NCBI GenBank assembly: GCA_024276465.1 | Contig: JAJRXD010000171.1 | Coordinates: 1-36,990 of the forward strand | Direction of reading: 5' to 3' | Length of the DNA stretch: 36,990 nt | From: Deltaproteobacteria bacterium | Lineage (GTDB): Bacteria > Desulfobacterota > WTBG01 > CAIYCZ01 > CAIRTM01 | Shown here: in pieces, positions 7,142-26,522 of the stretch | Numbering within the stretch: the stretch's first letter is position 1 | Layout of the letters: the number at the start of each line of letters is the position of its first letter | Position numbers and translations under genes: made by a program | The notes under the pieces: model-generated | The model's database searches: none | What the model was told of the DNA's origin: nothing | The model's input: the letters and a program-made list of their open reading frames with translations, nothing else

Positions 7142-8920
7142 TTATCGTTCCGGACAGCTGCTCAGATGGGGCTGTGCATCAGGCTCAACAGGACGACCAG
7201 TCTGCCCACCCCTCTTTTTTTTCCACCACTGCCCCAGGTCATCTATAACTATGGTAAAGACGCACGGTATCAGAAAAAGGGTGAGCAGGGTGGCTGCAGC
7301 CAGCCCCCAGAATATGGTATTGGCCATGGGCGCCCATATTTCAGACTTCCCACCCAGACCCATTGCCATGGGAAATACGCCGAACATGGTAGTAAGCGAG
7401 GTGAGAATTATAGCACGGAGCCTGAGCCTGCCAGCCTCTACTATTGAACGCCAGCGGCCCACCCCTTTTTTTCTTGCGCTGTTGATAAAGCTCAGCATGA
7501 CAATAGCGTCGTTGACCGCAATTCCGGCAAGCCCTATGAAGCCATAGAGAACCACCATTGAAAATGGTTTTCCTGTTATGACAAGGGACGAAATGGCCCC
7601 GATAAATGTGAAGGGTATTGCAAAGAGGATTATAAAGGGCTGTATGTAAGATTTAAACTGGGCACCAAGAATAATGTAGATGAGAAACAAACCCAGTAAA
7701 AAGAGCTGGCCAAGGGACGAGAACTGTTCCTTGATATCCTTGAACATGCCCTCAAAACGAACCGTATAGCCAGGATTTCTTCTGATGATTTTTTTTGCCT
7801 CTTTCTGCAGCTGCTGATTGACTTTTACAGCAGTGTTAACCGCCTTGTCCACATCAGCTGAAACAGTTGCCGCCCTGTCAAGCTTAAAATGACGTATTTT
7901 TGTGTAGCCTGGCTCAATCTTAATCCTGGCAACATTATGAAGTGGAATAAGATCACCCTGTGGGGTCGTTATTTTCAGATGTTCAATATCCTGGACAGAT
8001 TCAACATATTCCGGGTCATATTTTACAATAACGTCAACTTCTTCATCTCCCTCACGATAGACAGTTGCAACTTTTCCTTCAAAAGCATTACGTATTGAAG
8101 ATGCAACCCTGGAAATGTCAAGCCCGTAGAGAGCAGCCATATCTTCATCCACGTAGATTTTGAGGTCTTTTTTTCCATAATTGAGATCATTCTGGACACC
8201 ATAGACCCCGGGGATTTTTTTGAGATATTCTTTTATCTCTTCTGATATATCCTTTATCCTTGATAAATATTTTCCCTGTATTTTTACTTCAACAGCTTTG
8301 GGCCGTGGGGGACCGCCGCGAAGTTTTTTAAACTCTATGTTCAGGGGTCCCGGGATATCCACAACCTTTTTCCGGCAGTCTCTGATTATTTCATCAACCG
8401 AGCGCTCCCTGTCTGTTTTCTCCACAAGATCAACCATTATGTGCCCGACAGCAGTATTAAATATCCACTCATTATGTGTAATAAGAAGACCGGCATTTTT
8501 TACAATTGCAGCCACCTCGTTCTCCGGCAGCAATGCAAGCTTTTCTCCAATCTGAGAAAGAACACTGTTAGTGGCCTCAAGGTTTGATCCTTCAGGCATT
8601 GTGACATTAATATTGAATTGAGAAATTTCCTCCATGGAAAACAGGTCAACATCAATAATACCCACGGCTATGATGACAACACATCCGGCAAATACTGAAA
8701 GAACAGATCCTGTAAAGACATAACGGCGCTTTAATACATAGGTCAGTATTTTTGTGTACCTGTTTCTGAGTATGGAAATCAGACGATGGCGCAAAGGGCT
8801 CTGCCCTCCGCTGCCGCTCCACTCTGCGACGTGAGAGGGAAGAATAAAGAAAGCCTCAAAAAGAGATGCGGCAAGGGCAAGACATACAACAACCGGAACC
8901 ACACGGAGGAATTTACCCAT
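7142..8920 (-). pseudogene. RND efflux pump, C-terminal half (after an in-frame TGA)
   Basis: Second half of an AcrB-type RND transporter inner-membrane pump. It begins MGKFLRVVPVVVCLALAASL, which corresponds to TM5-6 of the family (normally '..LPG.MGKFLRV..'), runs through the second porter domain, and ends with TM7-12 including GLAGIAVNDAIVMLSF. Together with the preceding minus-strand part (453 residues) it gives about 1,045 residues, the full family length. The two parts are in the same frame, separated only by TGA and GTT. Reinitiation at the ATG three bases after the TGA is conceivable, but a half-pump is not a known functional unit. Whether this is a real nonsense mutation or a sequence error cannot be decided here. 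Confidence 0.8.
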
Positions 8921-10287: not shown

Positions 10288-11445
10288 TTACTCAATTATC
10301 TTAACCGGACTTCCGTTAAAAAGATTCTCTTGCCCCAGGGTGACTATCCGGTCTCCCGGATTCAGACCTTTTTTGATAATAATACTTGAATCCACAACAG
10401 CCCCCGGCTCTACAGCAATTTTTTTTGCCCGGCCACTCTCTACTGCCCACACAAAACTGCTGTCTGAAGCCTTTGAAACTATCTCCCCGGGCACGATAAT
10501 AACATTTCTGTGCATTTCAGTCTGAATCTCCACCCGTGCAAAAATGCCGGGTTTCAGCAGCGGCTCCTGATTGTTCCAGACTACAATTTCCACAGGGAAT
10601 GTAAGTGTTGCGTCATCTGCTTTCAGGCCCATGCTATAGACCGAACCTGTATATATTTTCCCGGGGTTTAAGGCAGTTGTTACTTTAACAGCCTGTCCTT
10701 CGCGTATTACGGACCACTCCTTTTCCGTGGCCCCTATCCTGATTTTAACCCTGTCTATATCCACAAGCACAGCGATTTTCTGACCAGTTACAACATTGGA
10801 TCCTAACGCTACAAAACGTTCTGCTAAAATACCGCTGAAAGGGCTTTTTATTAAGGTTTCCCGCAGGGTTCTCCTGGCAATTTTAAGGGCAGCCTGTGCT
10901 GAGGCCAAAAGCCCCTGGTCGCTTTTTTCCTTTGCCCGTGCCAGCTCAAGATCGTAAAGGGAAATAATTTTACCCTTAAAAAGCTCCTCTTTTCTTCTCA
11001 GATCGTTATTGCTGTATTGATGGTTTGCTTCAAGCTGCAGTATCTTGGCCTGCGCCTCCTCGAGCCTGTATTGAAGCATTTCGTCATCAATCTTGAGGAT
11101 TGGAGCACCAGGCTCCAGGCGGTCACCGACTTTTGCGTATAATGTTTTTACTTTCCCCGACACCTCCGAGGAAACAACAGCCTCCTGCCACGCCTGTATA
11201 ACAGCCGAGGAGCGAACAAAGCTTGCAATATCACTGTAATGGATCTCAGTCACCTTAACAGGGAATGCCTGTTCAGTTTTTTCCGATTTTTCAAGAGCCT
11301 GCAGTTTTTTCCTTTTTTGAATGCGGGCTGAAAGGGTTGCAATGATAAGAACAATCAAGACAAGTACTGCTGCTAAAATTACTTTATTTCTTTTCCCGGC
11401 TGACCTGGTTTTAGAAAAAGTTTTTGGTCGAATGCTGTTTTGCAT
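10288..11445 (-). CDS. RND periplasmic adaptor (membrane fusion) protein
   Basis: HlyD/AcrA-type adaptor of 385 residues. An N-terminal signal/anchor (KVILAAVLVLIVLIIATL) is followed by the first half of the lipoyl domain (AVVSSEVSGKVKTLYAKVGDRLEPGAPILKID), a short alpha-hairpin (about 120-190), the second lipoyl half (LIKSPFSGILAERFVALGSNVVTGQKIAVLVD), a beta-barrel and a membrane-proximal domain ending NLFNGSPVKIIE. It connects an inner-membrane RND pump to an outer-membrane channel. The pump gene follows two bases later. A TTGACA/TATACT promoter lies upstream. No regulator gene is adjacent. Confidence 0.92.
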   Translation of the reverse strand: MQNSIRPKTFSKTRSAGKRNKVILAAVLVLIVLIIATLSARIQKRKKLQALEKSEKTEQAFPVKVTEIHYSDIASFVRSSAVIQAWQEAVVSSEVSGKVKTLYAKVGDRLEPGAPILKIDDEMLQYRLEEAQAKILQLEANHQYSNNDLRRKEELFKGKIISLYDLELARAKEKSDQGLLASAQAALKIARRTLRETLIKSPFSGILAERFVALGSNVVTGQKIAVLVDIDRVKIRIGATEKEWSVIREGQAVKVTTALNPGKIYTGSVYSMGLKADDATLTFPVEIVVWNNQEPLLKPGIFARVEIQTEMHRNVIIVPGEIVSKASDSSFVWAVESGRAKKIAVEPGAVVDSSIIIKKGLNPGDRIVTLGQENLFNGSPVKIIE

Positions 11446-11482
11446 AAGTATATGTGCGGTCCTAAAAGGTTTGTTTGCTAAT

Positions 11483-11511
11483 AGTATAAAATATAAGCTT
11501 TTTTATGTCAA
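11483..11511 (-). promoter_or_regulatory. sigma70-type promoter of the efflux operon
   Basis: On the minus strand TTGACA (11506-11511) and TATACT (11483-11488) are spaced 17 bases apart, about 40 bases upstream of the adaptor ATG. This is a near-consensus promoter, so the operon looks constitutively transcribable unless repressed. Confidence 0.7.
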
Positions 11512-22464: not shown

Positions 22465-23757
22465 CTATAGATCCAGCGGACTTTTGGATTCCTTGATCGT
22501 TCTGGATTTGATGGTATGGGTATAGATCATTGTTGTTCTTACATCACTGTGCCCTAAAAGTTCCTGGATGGTTCTGATGTCATAATTGGCCTGGAGCAAA
22601 TGGCTTGCAAAGCTGTGTCTGAAGGTATGGGCAGAGGCCCTCTTAATGATTTTCGATTTTCTGACAGCACGCTTGATGGCTTTCTGTACATGGGTTTCAT
22701 GAAGATGATATCGTCGGAGTTCATTGGTATCAGCCACATGGGTTAATTCCTTTGACGGGAAAAACCATTGCCAGGTAAGCTCCCTGCCCGCATTTTTGTA
22801 TTTTTTTTCAAGTATTCCCGGTATGAATGCACCCGCATAGCCTTTGTTAAGATCATCCTGGTGCAGGGCAACAACTTTTTTAATCTGGGCTTTTAATTCA
22901 GCCTTAATAGAGGTGGGAAGAGGAACGGTCCTGTCCTTTTTACCTTTTCCGTCATGGATGGTCAGGATGTCATAATCAAAATTAAAATTATTGATCCGGA
23001 GTTTCATACATTCTGAAAGTCTGAGACCACAACCGTACAAGAGTTTCACTACAAGGTCATATGGGTAATAAAGATTACGGATAACATTGTCAATTTCATC
23101 CCGGGACAGGACAACCGGAATATAGGGTTTTCTTTTGGCCCTGACCACTCCGTCAATTTTCCCGAATTCCTTGTTCAGAACATGCCTGAAAAAGAATAAT
23201 AATGCATTAAATGCCTGGTTCTGGGATGATGCAGAAACCTTTTGTACAACAGCCAGAGAGGTCAGAAAATCTTTGACATCAGAAGAGATTAATTGTTCTG
23301 GTGGTTTGTGGTCTGTAAAGTATCTGATCTTTTCCACCCACAGTGAATAGGACTTAAGTGTTTTAGGCGAGTAATGACGCACCTTGATTTCATTACTCAA
23401 AGATTCAAGAGCAGTTTTCCAGTCTGTACTGCTCCGGGCAGTCTTAAATGATCCGGCAGATTCCCTTACCTGACTTTCGGATTCTGCCAGTGCTGATTTA
23501 ACGGTCATCCCTGCAAAGTATAACAGAACCGCCTGCCTGGCTTGATATTGTTGGGCTTGGGTCTGCTTTTTTTCTTTCAGTTTTTCAATAAACAGGGACA
23601 GACTTTCCTGTGCTGCATAAGCATGTTGATACTTTTTACAAAAATCCAGGTAATACCGTAGCCATTTTCTATAATTGTTGTGAAGCTTGGGCAGGATATC
23701 ATTTTTTTTTAAAAGAACATTATATTTTTTTTGCAATGCCTCTGGGATTTTCAACAT
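22465..23757 (-). CDS. intI: integron integrase (tyrosine recombinase, IntI type), N-terminally extended
   Basis: Site-specific recombinase that inserts and excises gene cassettes at attI and attC sites. All tyrosine-recombinase catalytic residues are visible: R246 (GCGLRLSE), K273/274 (GKGKKDR), H377 and R380 (HTFRH), H403 (LLGHSDV) and Y412 (TTMIYTH). IntI-specific features are the insertion between the active-site boxes (LEKKYKNAGRELTWQWFFPS followed by RRYHLHE) and the ending SPLD. At 430 residues it is about 90-100 longer than class 1 IntI (337). The extra N-terminal part (1-85) looks like another SAM-like core-binding domain. It is transcribed away from the cassettes, the normal integron layout. 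Confidence 0.93.
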   Translation of the reverse strand: MLKIPEALQKKYNVLLKKNDILPKLHNNYRKWLRYYLDFCKKYQHAYAAQESLSLFIEKLKEKKQTQAQQYQARQAVLLYFAGMTVKSALAESESQVRESAGSFKTARSSTDWKTALESLSNEIKVRHYSPKTLKSYSLWVEKIRYFTDHKPPEQLISSDVKDFLTSLAVVQKVSASSQNQAFNALLFFFRHVLNKEFGKIDGVVRAKRKPYIPVVLSRDEIDNVIRNLYYPYDLVVKLLYGCGLRLSECMKLRINNFNFDYDILTIHDGKGKKDRTVPLPTSIKAELKAQIKKVVALHQDDLNKGYAGAFIPGILEKKYKNAGRELTWQWFFPSKELTHVADTNELRRYHLHETHVQKAIKRAVRKSKIIKRASAHTFRHSFASHLLQANYDIRTIQELLGHSDVRTTMIYTHTIKSRTIKESKSPLDL

Positions 23758-23790
23758 AGTAGCTTTCGTAGATATTATTCGGATGGTGGT

Positions 23791-23890
23791 ATTATCCAGT
23801 TAGATATTATATACTTGACATGGATATCTATGTCAAGTATATAAATATCATGAATGATATCCAGAACTGTACAATAACTTGTTATGTGTA
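23791..23890. other. probable attI region of the integron
   Basis: The array must begin between the integrase start (23757) and the first cassette gene (23923). Two cleavage-like sites are visible: GTTAGAT at 23799-23805, an exact match to GTTRRRY, and GTTATGT at 23881-23887, which sits in the small hairpin ATAAC/GTTAT. The second gives the usual order integrase, promoter, attI, cassette. Which is used cannot be settled by reading alone. Confidence 0.5.
23808..23843. promoter_or_regulatory. palindromic divergent promoter pair (Pc and Pint candidates)
   Basis: ATACTTGACAT (23811-23821) and ATGTCAAGTAT (23830-23840) form an 11-base perfect inverted repeat. On the plus strand TTGACA (23815-23820) is 17 bases from TATATA (23838-23843), facing the cassettes. 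On the minus strand TTGACA (23831-23836) is 17 bases from TATATA (23808-23813), facing intI. Both promoters occupy almost the same DNA, so polymerase or a dimeric regulator bound there would affect both. Confidence 0.6.
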
Positions 23891-23922
23891 AAATAGTGAA
23901 TCCAAATAAAAAGAAGAAGTGA

Positions 23923-24738
23923 GTGAGTAAATTGAAAAAATTAAACTTTCCGAAAGACTTCATTGATAAGTTTATCTGTGGAAACACTATTGATGTAATG
24001 AAACAGATTCCAGATGAGTCTGTTGATTTGATTGTTACCTCACCACCTTACAATCTAAAAAACTCAACAGGTAATGGTATGAAGGATGGGCGAGGTGGTA
24101 AATGGTCAAATGCAGCTTTAATAAATGGCTATTCACATTACAAGGATAATATGCCGCATGAAAAATATGTTGCTTGGCAAAGAGAATGTTTGGAGGAAAT
24201 GCTACGAATAATCCCAGAAGATGGAGCCATATTTTATAACCATAAATGGCGTGTTCAAGCGGGTTTATTGCAAGACAGGCATGATATTGTTTCAGGTTTT
24301 CCAGTAAGACAGATTATTATATGGAAAAGAAAAGGTGGAATAAACTTTAACCCTGGATATTTTTTACCAACTTATGAAGTTATTTATCTTATAGCAAAGC
24401 CGAAATTTAAGTTAGCAAAAAAAGCTAATGCTTATGGGGATGTTTGGGAATTTGGACAAGAAAGTAGAAATAAACATCCAGCACCTTTTCCTGTTGAATT
24501 GATTGAAACAATTATTTCTTCAACAACAGCAAAAATAGTTCTTGATCCATTTATGGGTTCCGGAACAACGGCCATTGCTGCGAAAGGATTAGATCGACAC
24601 TTTATTGGAATAGATATTTCACCAGAATATTGCAAAATGGCAGAAGAACGACTTATTGATCCTTCTTCAATAATAAAGAAAAATGATAAAATGCAAACAC
24701 AACAGCCAACGTTATTTGACATTATGGAGAAAAAATGA
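23923..24738 (+). CDS. DNA methyltransferase (TSPPYN type) of a restriction-modification cassette
   Basis: 271-residue S-adenosylmethionine-dependent DNA methyltransferase that should modify an exocyclic amino group. Motif IV TSPPYN is at residues 39-44 and motif I DPFMGSGTT begins at 208. This order (catalytic motif first) is that of the beta class. SPPY is common in N4-cytosine enzymes, and partners of MvaI/BcnI endonucleases are N4-cytosine methylases, so m4C is the likely product; m6A cannot be excluded. The stop overlaps the endonuclease start (ATGA at 24735-24738). GTG 23923 is the assumed start, with a weak ribosome site. AT-rich, as expected for a foreign cassette. Confidence 0.88.
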   Translation: MSKLKKLNFPKDFIDKFICGNTIDVMKQIPDESVDLIVTSPPYNLKNSTGNGMKDGRGGKWSNAALINGYSHYKDNMPHEKYVAWQRECLEEMLRIIPEDGAIFYNHKWRVQAGLLQDRHDIVSGFPVRQIIIWKRKGGINFNPGYFLPTYEVIYLIAKPKFKLAKKANAYGDVWEFGQESRNKHPAPFPVELIETIISSTTAKIVLDPFMGSGTTAIAAKGLDRHFIGIDISPEYCKMAEERLIDPSSIIKKNDKMQTQQPTLFDIMEKK

Positions 24739-25508
24739 AGACATATACCAAAGAAAGTTTAATAAAGGCTCTTATTGAAATTCGAAATAAAGGTTGGATT
24801 CCAACAGGACGTAAAAACAATGACGGTGGTGTGGGCAATACTTTAGAAGACTTATTGGGAATTGAAGAAAATAATCTTCCTATTCCAAATGCTGCAGAAT
24901 GGGAGCTAAAAGCACAGAAGAAAGATACAACTGCATTAATTACATTATTTCATATGGAACCCTCGCCACGTGCTTACAAATTTGTTCCTTCAATACTCTT
25001 ACCCGAATTTGGCTGGAGACATCAAGAAGCGGGAATAAAACACCCTGATGATGAAAAAAGTTTTAGACAAACAATAAATGCAAATATTTATAGTAATAGA
25101 GGATTTACTGTAAAAGTAGATAGAAATCAAAGAAAAGTATTGATTAATTTTGATCATAGCAAAATTATAGATAGAGATCATCCAGAATGGATCAATTTTG
25201 TTGAAGGGAAAAGCCTTAATCCAGAACCTTACTGGGGATTTGACGACTTATATCACAAAGCTGGAACAAAATTGCATAATTGTTTTTTTGTTTGGGCTGA
25301 ATCGAAGAAGATAAATGGGATTCTCCATTTTCACTATCAAGAAATATATATGTTGAAACAATTTGATTTAGATAGATTTATAGACGCTATAGAAGCGGGT
25401 AATGTTTATATAGATTTTGATGCACGTACAGGTCATAATCATGGGACAAAGTTTAGACTAAGAAGAGAAGCGTTAATTGATTTATTTGCAGCTGTGAAAG
25501 AATATTAA
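24735..25508 (+). CDS. MvaI/BcnI-family type II restriction endonuclease
   Basis: 257 residues. MvaI/BcnI-family enzymes cut CCWGG or CCSGG sequences as monomers. Visible family features are GGVGNTLEDLLGI (about 32-43) and the catalytic EWELKAQ with E57 and K59 (ExK); the preceding acidic residue of the PD-(D/E)xK centre is probably E38. The C-terminal FRLRREALIDLF also fits. The gene directly overlaps the methyltransferase, forming a complete restriction-modification pair within one integron cassette, since no attC lies between them. The recognition sequence cannot be read from the protein with certainty; CCNGG-type is the inference. Confidence 0.85.
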   Translation: MKTYTKESLIKALIEIRNKGWIPTGRKNNDGGVGNTLEDLLGIEENNLPIPNAAEWELKAQKKDTTALITLFHMEPSPRAYKFVPSILLPEFGWRHQEAGIKHPDDEKSFRQTINANIYSNRGFTVKVDRNQRKVLINFDHSKIIDRDHPEWINFVEGKSLNPEPYWGFDDLYHKAGTKLHNCFFVWAESKKINGILHFHYQEIYMLKQFDLDRFIDAIEAGNVYIDFDARTGHNHGTKFRLRREALIDLFAAVKEY

Positions 25509-25510
25509 CA

Positions 25511-25640
25511 CATAACAAATCGCTGCAGTGGATTTTGTTCCGCTTCGCTCCACAAAACCACTGAGCTTTGTCGTTCACGCCGCCTACGGCGGCGTGAACG
25601 CCGAGTTGAACTGAGCTCTTCCGATTTGCCCCCGCCGCAG
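25511..25640. other. attC-like site plus inverted partial attC (composite)
   Basis: The left part starts with CATAACAAATCG and folds as CAGTGG(A)TTTTGT (25526-25538) against ACAAAACCACTG (25552-25563), leaving A25532 unpaired, as expected in attC. A perfect palindrome follows, GTTCACGCCGCC (25573-25584) with GGCGGCGTGAAC (25588-25599). Beyond it, the reverse complement of about 25600-25628 reads like the right half of another attC (CAACTCGGCGTT). This looks like two sites joined head to head. Confidence 0.5.
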
Positions 25641-25644
25641 GCGG

Positions 25645-25740
25645 CGTGAACAAATCGTTCGAGCTGACAAAATTGCCTGCATAACCAGCCACTTCGTATC
25701 CGTTATACAGGCAATTTTGCAGCTCAACTCGGCGTTAGCA
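25645..25740 (+). other. attC recombination site
   Basis: Layout matches classical attC sites: GAACAAATCGTTCGAGCTG on the left and CAGCTCAACTCGGCGTTAGC on the right. The inner stem GAGCTG(A)CAAAATTGCCTG (25661-25679) pairs with CAGGCAATTTTGCAGCTC (25708-25725) perfectly over 18 bases, except for unpaired A25667. Cleavage should fall after G25734 in GTTAGCA. The next cassette gene begins 17 bases later. Confidence 0.85.
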
Positions 25741-25751
25741 GGACTCAAATT

Positions 25752-26090
25752 ATGAATTTACATTATAATTATGTTTCAGCATCTGAAGCAGGTGATTATT
25801 TTCAAGTTCTTTTTGCAGAAAAACCAGATAGTGACGATAACTATTTTTTAATTCAAAGAGGATTTGAATTTGATAATAACACTTGTTACATCGAATCCCC
25901 TAATTACGATATTGTTGGTCATTTTAAAATTATTGAAAGTTCACTAACTCGAACTAATTTCTATATTGAAATTAAAAATAAAAATAGTTTTAGTATTTTT
26001 TTTAAAACTTCAGAAGATAATTTTAAAGAAGTTAAAAAGATTTTAAAGATTATACTATCAGGTTTTAATTGTTTTCAAATAAAATGCTAA
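25752..26090 (+). CDS. integron cassette protein of unknown function
   Basis: 112 residues, acidic then basic, with no signal peptide or membrane segment. It begins MNLHYNYVSASEAGDYFQVL and ends FNCFQIKC. I recognise no family. Strongly AT-rich. Its start lies just after the attC cleavage site, typical of cassette genes that rely on transcription from the upstream cassette promoter. Like many cassette proteins it is short; a role as antitoxin, immunity protein or phage-defence factor would be guesswork. Confidence 0.65.
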   Translation: MNLHYNYVSASEAGDYFQVLFAEKPDSDDNYFLIQRGFEFDNNTCYIESPNYDIVGHFKIIESSLTRTNFYIEIKNKNSFSIFFKTSEDNFKEVKKILKIILSGFNCFQIKC

Positions 26091-26152: not shown

Positions 26153-26371
26153 ATGACGATGGATAAAAGATACGAAATCATCATTTTTTGGAGTTCTGAG
26201 GATAATACCTGCGTAGCCGAGGTTCCGGAACTCCCCGGATGCATGGCCGACGGTAAGACTTATCAGGAGGCTCTCGGCAACGCGGAGCAAATCATTGATG
26301 AGTGGATCGAAACTGCCACGAAACTCGGCAGATCCATTCCTCAACCTAAGGGACGTCTTGCATATGCCTAA
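26153..26371 (+). CDS. HicB-like antitoxin-family protein (orphan cassette)
   Basis: 72 residues of the short HicB/UPF0150 fold: YEIIIFWSSEDNTCVAEVPELPGCMADGKTYQEALGNAEQIIDEW. HicB proteins neutralise the HicA RNA-degrading toxin. Here the 62 bases before it are too short for hicA and none follows, so it is an orphan. Short HicB-like genes without a toxin are frequent in integron cassettes. Either ATG 26153 or ATG 26159 could start it; GGAG upstream favours the first. The stop codon lies inside the following attC-like sequence GCCTAAC, a common cassette arrangement. Confidence 0.8.
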   Translation: MTMDKRYEIIIFWSSEDNTCVAEVPELPGCMADGKTYQEALGNAEQIIDEWIETATKLGRSIPQPKGRLAYA

Positions 26372-26440
26372 CAACGCTGGTCGCACAATGGGATGAAGAT
26401 GGACGGGCTTTATCCTGCGGCCTTGATAAGGACGTTATTA
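26366..26440 (+). other. degenerate attC-like site at the end of the array
   Basis: GCCTAAC (26366-26372) fits the RYYYAAC left core and is followed by AACGCTGG. On the right, GACGTTATTAGCTCAAC (26431-26447) resembles the right half but does not match GTTRRRY. Pairing between the halves is poor apart from TTATC/GATAA. It probably marks the last, decayed cassette boundary. Confidence 0.4.
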
Positions 26441-26522
26441 GCTCAACTTATTTGCTTCCCCACCTATTCCGAGGTTCAATCCGCCCACCATTCGCCAGAG
26501 TCACAATTTGACATCATTACTG

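Follow-up and report, generated by a model that had tools for sequence, protein, structure and literature searches.

Gene-less integron cassettes of Desulfobacterota in which an attC site is joined to an inverted copy of itself

An integron with a composite cassette between two gene cassettes

The window, that is the whole stretch of 36,990 nucleotides that we analysed, contains an integron whose integrase gene is followed by an attI region, a restriction-modification cassette, a short cassette lacking any gene (hereafter E) and a further gene cassette (Table 1). The integrase has an N-terminal extension of ∼110 residues. Long integrases of this kind (430–485 aa, with extensions of ∼110–170 residues preceding a normal integron-integrase domain) were seen in the window (22465-23757) and at two other loci, L112 (9905-11362) and L114 (9850-11307). 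TIGR02249 scores above the cut-off were obtained for the integrases of the window, L009, L040, L047, L112 and L119.

Table 1. Features of the integron and parts of the composite cassette E
Feature	Position	Strand	Description
Integron integrase gene	22465..23757	-	430 aa; TIGR02249 378.5 bits (cut-off 265); PF00589 + PF13495
attI region (approximate)	23758..23881		Between intI and first cassette; junction G|TT at 23881/23882, read from sequence
Cassette 1	23882..25573	+	PF01555 + PF15515: N6/N4 methyltransferase, MvaI/BcnI-family endonuclease; own attC; borders read from sequence
attC of cassette 1	25510..25579	+	R'' ACATAAC, L''/L' stem, single unpaired base near stem
Gene-less composite cassette (E)	25574..25734	+	161 bp, G|TT to G|TT
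P1 hairpin	25574..25598	+	25-base palindrome TTCACGCCGCC TAC GGCGGCGTGAA; 11/11 pairs
a, inverted L' arm	25599..25611	-	12/13 complementary to a'
b, inverted L'' arm	25622..25628	-	7/7 complementary to b'; a-b interval without terminal stem
Inverted R'' box	25628..25632	-	Core GTTC changed to GCCC
P2 hairpin	25632..25644	+	CCGCC GCA GGCGG; left side is the altered inverted R'' box
Inner attC	25645..25736	+	R'' AAC 25649-25651, L'' 25657-25667, L', R' GTT 25734-25736
b', partner of b	25651..25657	+	Last part of R'' plus first part of the L'' side
V...V', terminal stem-loop of attC	25668..25719	+	18-nt inverted repeat, 94%
a', partner of a	25722..25734	+	L' arm and last base before TT
Next cassette	25735..26090	+	Begins TTAGCAGG...; ORF 25752-26090, 112 aa

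Cassette 1 encodes a complete type II restriction-modification pair (23923-25508); the cassette adjoining a related element at another locus, L039 (ORFs of 317 and 526 aa), likewise resembles such a pair. The R'' box of the cassette 1 attC is complementary to the cassette start, GTTATGT at 23881, and the DNA fold of this site has −13.5 kcal/mol (z −3.8). This is the second hairpin with one unpaired base that the sequence-only reading had placed to the left of a well-formed attC; it is the attC of the preceding cassette. On the other side of E, the 112-aa ORF gave no match in a Pfam search. Further downstream, a 72-aa ORF (26153-26371), which by eye resembles a HicB-type antitoxin, is followed by an attC-like sequence (26369-26450) and makes up a further cassette.

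The well-formed attC itself, with its single unpaired base, was also recovered, as the right half of E. Its L'' has two extrahelical bases, C25660 and A25667 (G and T on the bottom strand). When the bottom strand of this site was folded alone, as had been advised for checking, a hairpin with one unpaired base (A25667 on the plus strand) was obtained with z −5.1, a value equalled by 0/200 shuffles.

For the left half of E, the sequence-only reading had named a perfect palindrome and, attached to it, one half of an attC in inverted orientation. We found both: the palindrome arms (25572-25584 and 25588-25600) match at 100% over 13 nt, and AACGCCGAGTTGAACTG (25597-25613) forms with CAGCTCAACTCGGCGTT (25720-25736) an inverted repeat of 17 nt at 94%. 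The description as a half was, however, incomplete, the L''/R'' half of the inverted copy having been overlooked: b, CGATTTG at 25622-25628, matches the inverted CAAATCG at 25651-25657. Since this half is included too, the module amounts to a whole inverted attC minus the terminal stem. The order of parts in E is thus P1, a, b, P2, R'' AAC, b'/L'', the V stem-loop, L'/a' and R' GTT.

Among the listed ORFs (at least 40 aa) the only one that overlaps E is an antisense frame of 54 aa, and a G|TT junction stands on both sides of E, towards cassette 1 and towards the cassette of ORF 25752-26090. We concluded that E is one complete gene-less cassette in a real integron with a TIGR02249 integrase. 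The earlier suggestion of a minimal gene-less cassette was borne out in that cassette borders lie at both ends and E appears, from its sequence, to move as a unit. Gene-less cassettes with promoter activity have been published (PMC11014356), and E might accordingly carry a promoter, as in Vibrio superintegrons. A pattern search confined to sigma-70-like promoters found no such site within 25573-25736, E is largely GC-rich hairpin and its conservation is structural, so that we regard a promoter function as very improbable.

Copies, borders and a family across the phylum

The sequence-only reading was to be dropped if the left part proved unrelated to attC sites elsewhere in the genome. Relatives do exist there: a second integron in the same genome, on contig C134, holds two deletion variants of E. 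One of them consists of P and attC (112 nt; 97% identity over 105 bases) and is the first cassette, directly at attI; the other is a 52-base remnant of P1 and a/a'. Beyond this genome, the whole unit is 93% identical in G193 and 86% identical in G086 (Candidatus Desulfaltia), each from another class of the phylum; in G193 the flanks are unrelated. The idea of an aberrant event at this locus was therefore abandoned: the composite is inherited, and its architecture is conserved over the phylum.

Several near-identical copies per genome are common in the family, and G373 has two that lie 1.8 Mb apart. In near-identical copy pairs (159/159, 161/162, 182/184 and 151/162 bases), identity begins at G|TT and stops at R|TT, exactly at the cassette junctions, and the 30-base flanks are unrelated. 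Some units adjoin attI itself and others follow a gene cassette's attC, again with exact cassette borders, and in the arrays listed they share the array orientation, on the strand opposite intI. From these exact-border copies we infer that IntI excises and inserts the unit.

Some loci showed further arrangements. In one array of G545 (L107), attI-like sequences of ∼90 bases without an integrase are duplicated (8370-8456 and 11410-11498) and stand upstream of two unit copies. At L044 and L021, a unit lies at an attI-like sequence beside short remnants of an integrase N-terminus; these are probably decayed integrons that retained the unit. We also considered a rule by which every gene is preceded by a unit. 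It seemed to hold in G772 and failed in other arrays, several ORFs lying between units.

A covariance model of the left half of the unit, R1, was built from seven members, one of them the window unit, which as a training sequence scores 115 bits. At E ≤ 0.01, R1 had matches in 25 of 395 genomes in a set spanning the phylum, and in 39 of 389 when a single class was searched; the relatives that have names are Deltaproteobacteria, Desulfobacteraceae and Desulfaltia. The best matches are very divergent in sequence and retain the same order of parts, and a' is complementary to a at 10 or more of 13 positions in 62 of 68 parsed matches; these 62 belong to ∼45 genomes. The model search covered Desulfobacterota and Spirochaetota. 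In the latter, taken as outgroup, one of 120 genomes gave a match at E ≤ 0.001, which on inspection was a tandem REP-like repeat and not a member of the family. Viral contigs searched with three family-specific patterns and a terminal-loop pattern, plasmids and phages searched by DNA similarity, and the window searched against Rfam at gathering scores gave no match.

The same arrangement in dozens of genomes is more than chance would give. As the architecture recurs in ∼45 genomes of Desulfobacterota, relatives of sulfate reducers, we regard these tiny mobile DNA elements as a genuine family and not a one-off accident. A single head-to-head attC fusion at the locus, or an assembly fold-back at the palindrome, we consider next to impossible. 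Palindromes do yield fold-back contigs, and contig C120 of G396 (L049), in which the two sides of P1-P2 repeat each other in inverted orientation, is probably such an artefact; its sequence was used only up to P2. Independently assembled genomes from other classes (G193, G086 and HyVt-17) nevertheless carry the same composite, as do several large single-contig assemblies, and this recurrence rules out a one-off fusion or artefact at this locus.

In attC sites, AAC in R'' and GTT in R' are described as invariant (PMC2727003). AAC is kept in R'' almost throughout the family. In R', the core is ATT in about half or more of 38 representatives and outnumbers GTT, which the window unit has; the integrases of ATT-core members may tolerate an ATT core. 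In the L'' box of the bottom strand, a subset of members (L087, L107 and L054; b' region) has C where the extrahelical G is otherwise conserved.

Predicted competing folds and conserved pairing

We folded the 38 representatives with DNA parameters, the resulting energies leaving out IntI, SSB and supercoiling. For E, a stretch of 149 nt folds with z −9.5. The full unit is predicted to form a three-way junction on both strands. On the bottom strand, 36 of 38 folds contained the a-a' helix, and none of the 38 unconstrained ones showed the canonical L''-L' pairing of attC; the attC hairpin is the preferred bottom-strand fold of attC alone, not of the full unit. When a and b were forbidden to pair, the folds became less stable by 20.8 kcal/mol on average and attC-type pairs appeared in 23 of 38. 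In 33 of 38 representatives the bottom strand had the more stable fold (mean 5.9 kcal/mol), the top-strand fold being stable too. Helices that join arms 160 bases apart may fail to form in vivo.

The pairing is conserved while the sequences are not. The arms a/a' and b/b' remain complementary although they diverge strongly, and P1 keeps its pairing despite changes on both of its sides. Own a/a' partners match at 11.97 of 13 positions, against 5.95 of 13 for swapped partners (37 distinct a sequences; the swapped comparison was not realigned). In a small alignment 91.8% of cells pair, compared with 33–51% for slid-partner controls. Covariation also links the cassette's last base to the base that follows P1 (T-A 16, C-G 11, C-A 3, T-G 2; Fisher p 1.9e-4), so that R' tracks the inverted copy, though R'' is almost always AAC.

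The mismatches that do occur have a modest bias towards the bottom strand, the one used by IntI. With one count per cluster, those that are A-C on the top strand and hence G-T on the bottom strand exceed top-strand G-T by 33 to 14 (p 0.008); the elements share ancestry, 62 of them forming 11 loose clusters, and the strand counts are therefore only partly independent. At the positions of the inverted copy that face the AA of R'', T (paired) or C stands almost always and G never: the non-Watson-Crick changes are C in 45/52, A in 7/52 and G in 0/52. Such a C gives a G-T wobble on the bottom strand and abolishes the GTT core of the inverted box. Transition bias together with an unchangeable R'' may be a partial cause of the excess of C.

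The sole attC substrate of IntI, for binding as for cutting, is the folded bottom strand, and L'-R' is the place of recombination (PMC2727003). Our main reading, to which we give a probability of about 0.5, is that these units are IntI-mobilised, gene-less miniature cassettes of Desulfobacterota whose attC would be held in a competing and more stable fold. Mobility, borders, the family and conserved pairing are supported by sequence comparison; the fold and its energy are computed. The right half is an ordinary attC that would provide borders and mobility; the left half, P1 and the inverted copy without terminal stem and with its R'' box disabled, would pair in cis with the arms of that attC. 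One arm of the predicted junction would be formed by inverted L' with L', a second, capped by P2, by inverted L'' with L'', and the third by the V stem, with P1 alongside.

The junction and the recombinogenic hairpin would be mutually exclusive, and as the junction is predicted to be far more stable, attC would be active only transiently. With the attC arms in two different helices of the full unit, IntI should miss its substrate at equilibrium. It is tempting to go further and to propose, phylum-wide, a cis-acting anti-attC, in which the inverted copy switches attC between the active hairpin and an occluded bottom-strand junction and so makes a self-regulating site; this we hold tentatively, and with clear reservations. 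On the bottom strand the first, 5' part contains the inner attC, which could fold ahead of the junction when the strand is newly single. A brief period open to recombination, while the compact hairpin forms first, might then give way to lock-out; of all the steps this one is the least certain. Lock-out would limit excision and stabilise the cassette, and would yet permit insertion and spread. Occlusion and its effect on recombination are what we infer from the modelled folds, and a self-locking attC is odd for a selfish element.

Template switching during replication is an established route to perfected inverted repeats. The main rival builds on it: the same mobile gene-less family, with the inverted module a functionless palindromic relic kept complementary by quasi-palindrome correction. 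Such correction can keep inverted repeats perfect without selection, and module-free variants persist in cassette positions (the 112-nt first cassette of C134 and a second attC type in G085). A relic would, however, be expected to show G-T and A-C equally on the two strands, against the modest 33 to 14 bias found. The missing terminal stem, the changed inverted R'' core and the order of parts, all kept over a very divergent family, also speak against it. We find an unselected palindrome doubtful.

If the unit served as a structured RNA leader, with transcription starting at Pc or in a cassette upstream, its top-strand fold could adjust how the gene that follows is translated or terminated. The constant array orientation of the unit, its frequent location a few tens of bases before the next ORF and the stability of the top-strand fold would agree with such a role. 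Compensatory wobble favours, on the contrary, the bottom, non-transcribed strand, which is also the more stable in most representatives; the window has no Rfam match and the unit no terminator-like site. This makes an RNA leader unlikely.

Relation to known cassettes and mobile elements

A cassette is usually viewed as a gene plus an attC. A minimal gene-less cassette, with a conserved architecture spread over a phylum, suggests that an attC by itself can be a selfish mobile element. Should the inverted module indeed occlude attC, the structure of the DNA would itself hold a control over recombination, and the family would offer a natural set of variants for studying how attC folding limits cassette movement. 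The units could also mislead software for attC detection, whose output may be a single attC, a pair of sites that point in opposite directions, or nothing.

Gene-less cassettes are already known; what sets the present ones apart is an attC whose predicted fold is non-canonical and whose core is often not GTT. In the open-licence papers searched we came upon neither an inverted attC module nor such a family, also when looking for gene-less, inverted, palindromic or three-way-junction attC, for miniature non-autonomous cassettes and for integrons of Desulfobacterota, which leaves their absence from the literature unproven.

The unit resembles REP sequences and MITEs in being short, non-coding, palindromic, multi-copy and moved in trans by a recombinase. 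Its borders and insertion points are, unlike theirs, integron cassette junctions and not transposase ends, and neither terminal inverted repeats of a transposon nor target duplication were seen at the units. With the gene-less cassettes of Vibrio superintegrons it shares the lack of an ORF and mobility through attC (PMC11014356). Those were studied for promoter activity, in a text that names no hairpin, palindrome or inverted repeat, whereas the present family has one conserved DNA architecture over a phylum. With attC (59-base element) itself it shares R'' AAC, an L''/L' stem with extrahelical bases, an unpaired spacer, a variable terminal stem-loop, a more stable bottom strand and a G|TT junction. 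It differs from an ordinary attC in that many members have ATT and not GTT as R' core, and in that its attC is part of a larger fold, to which two palindromes and an inverted copy of the site, lacking the stem, also belong.
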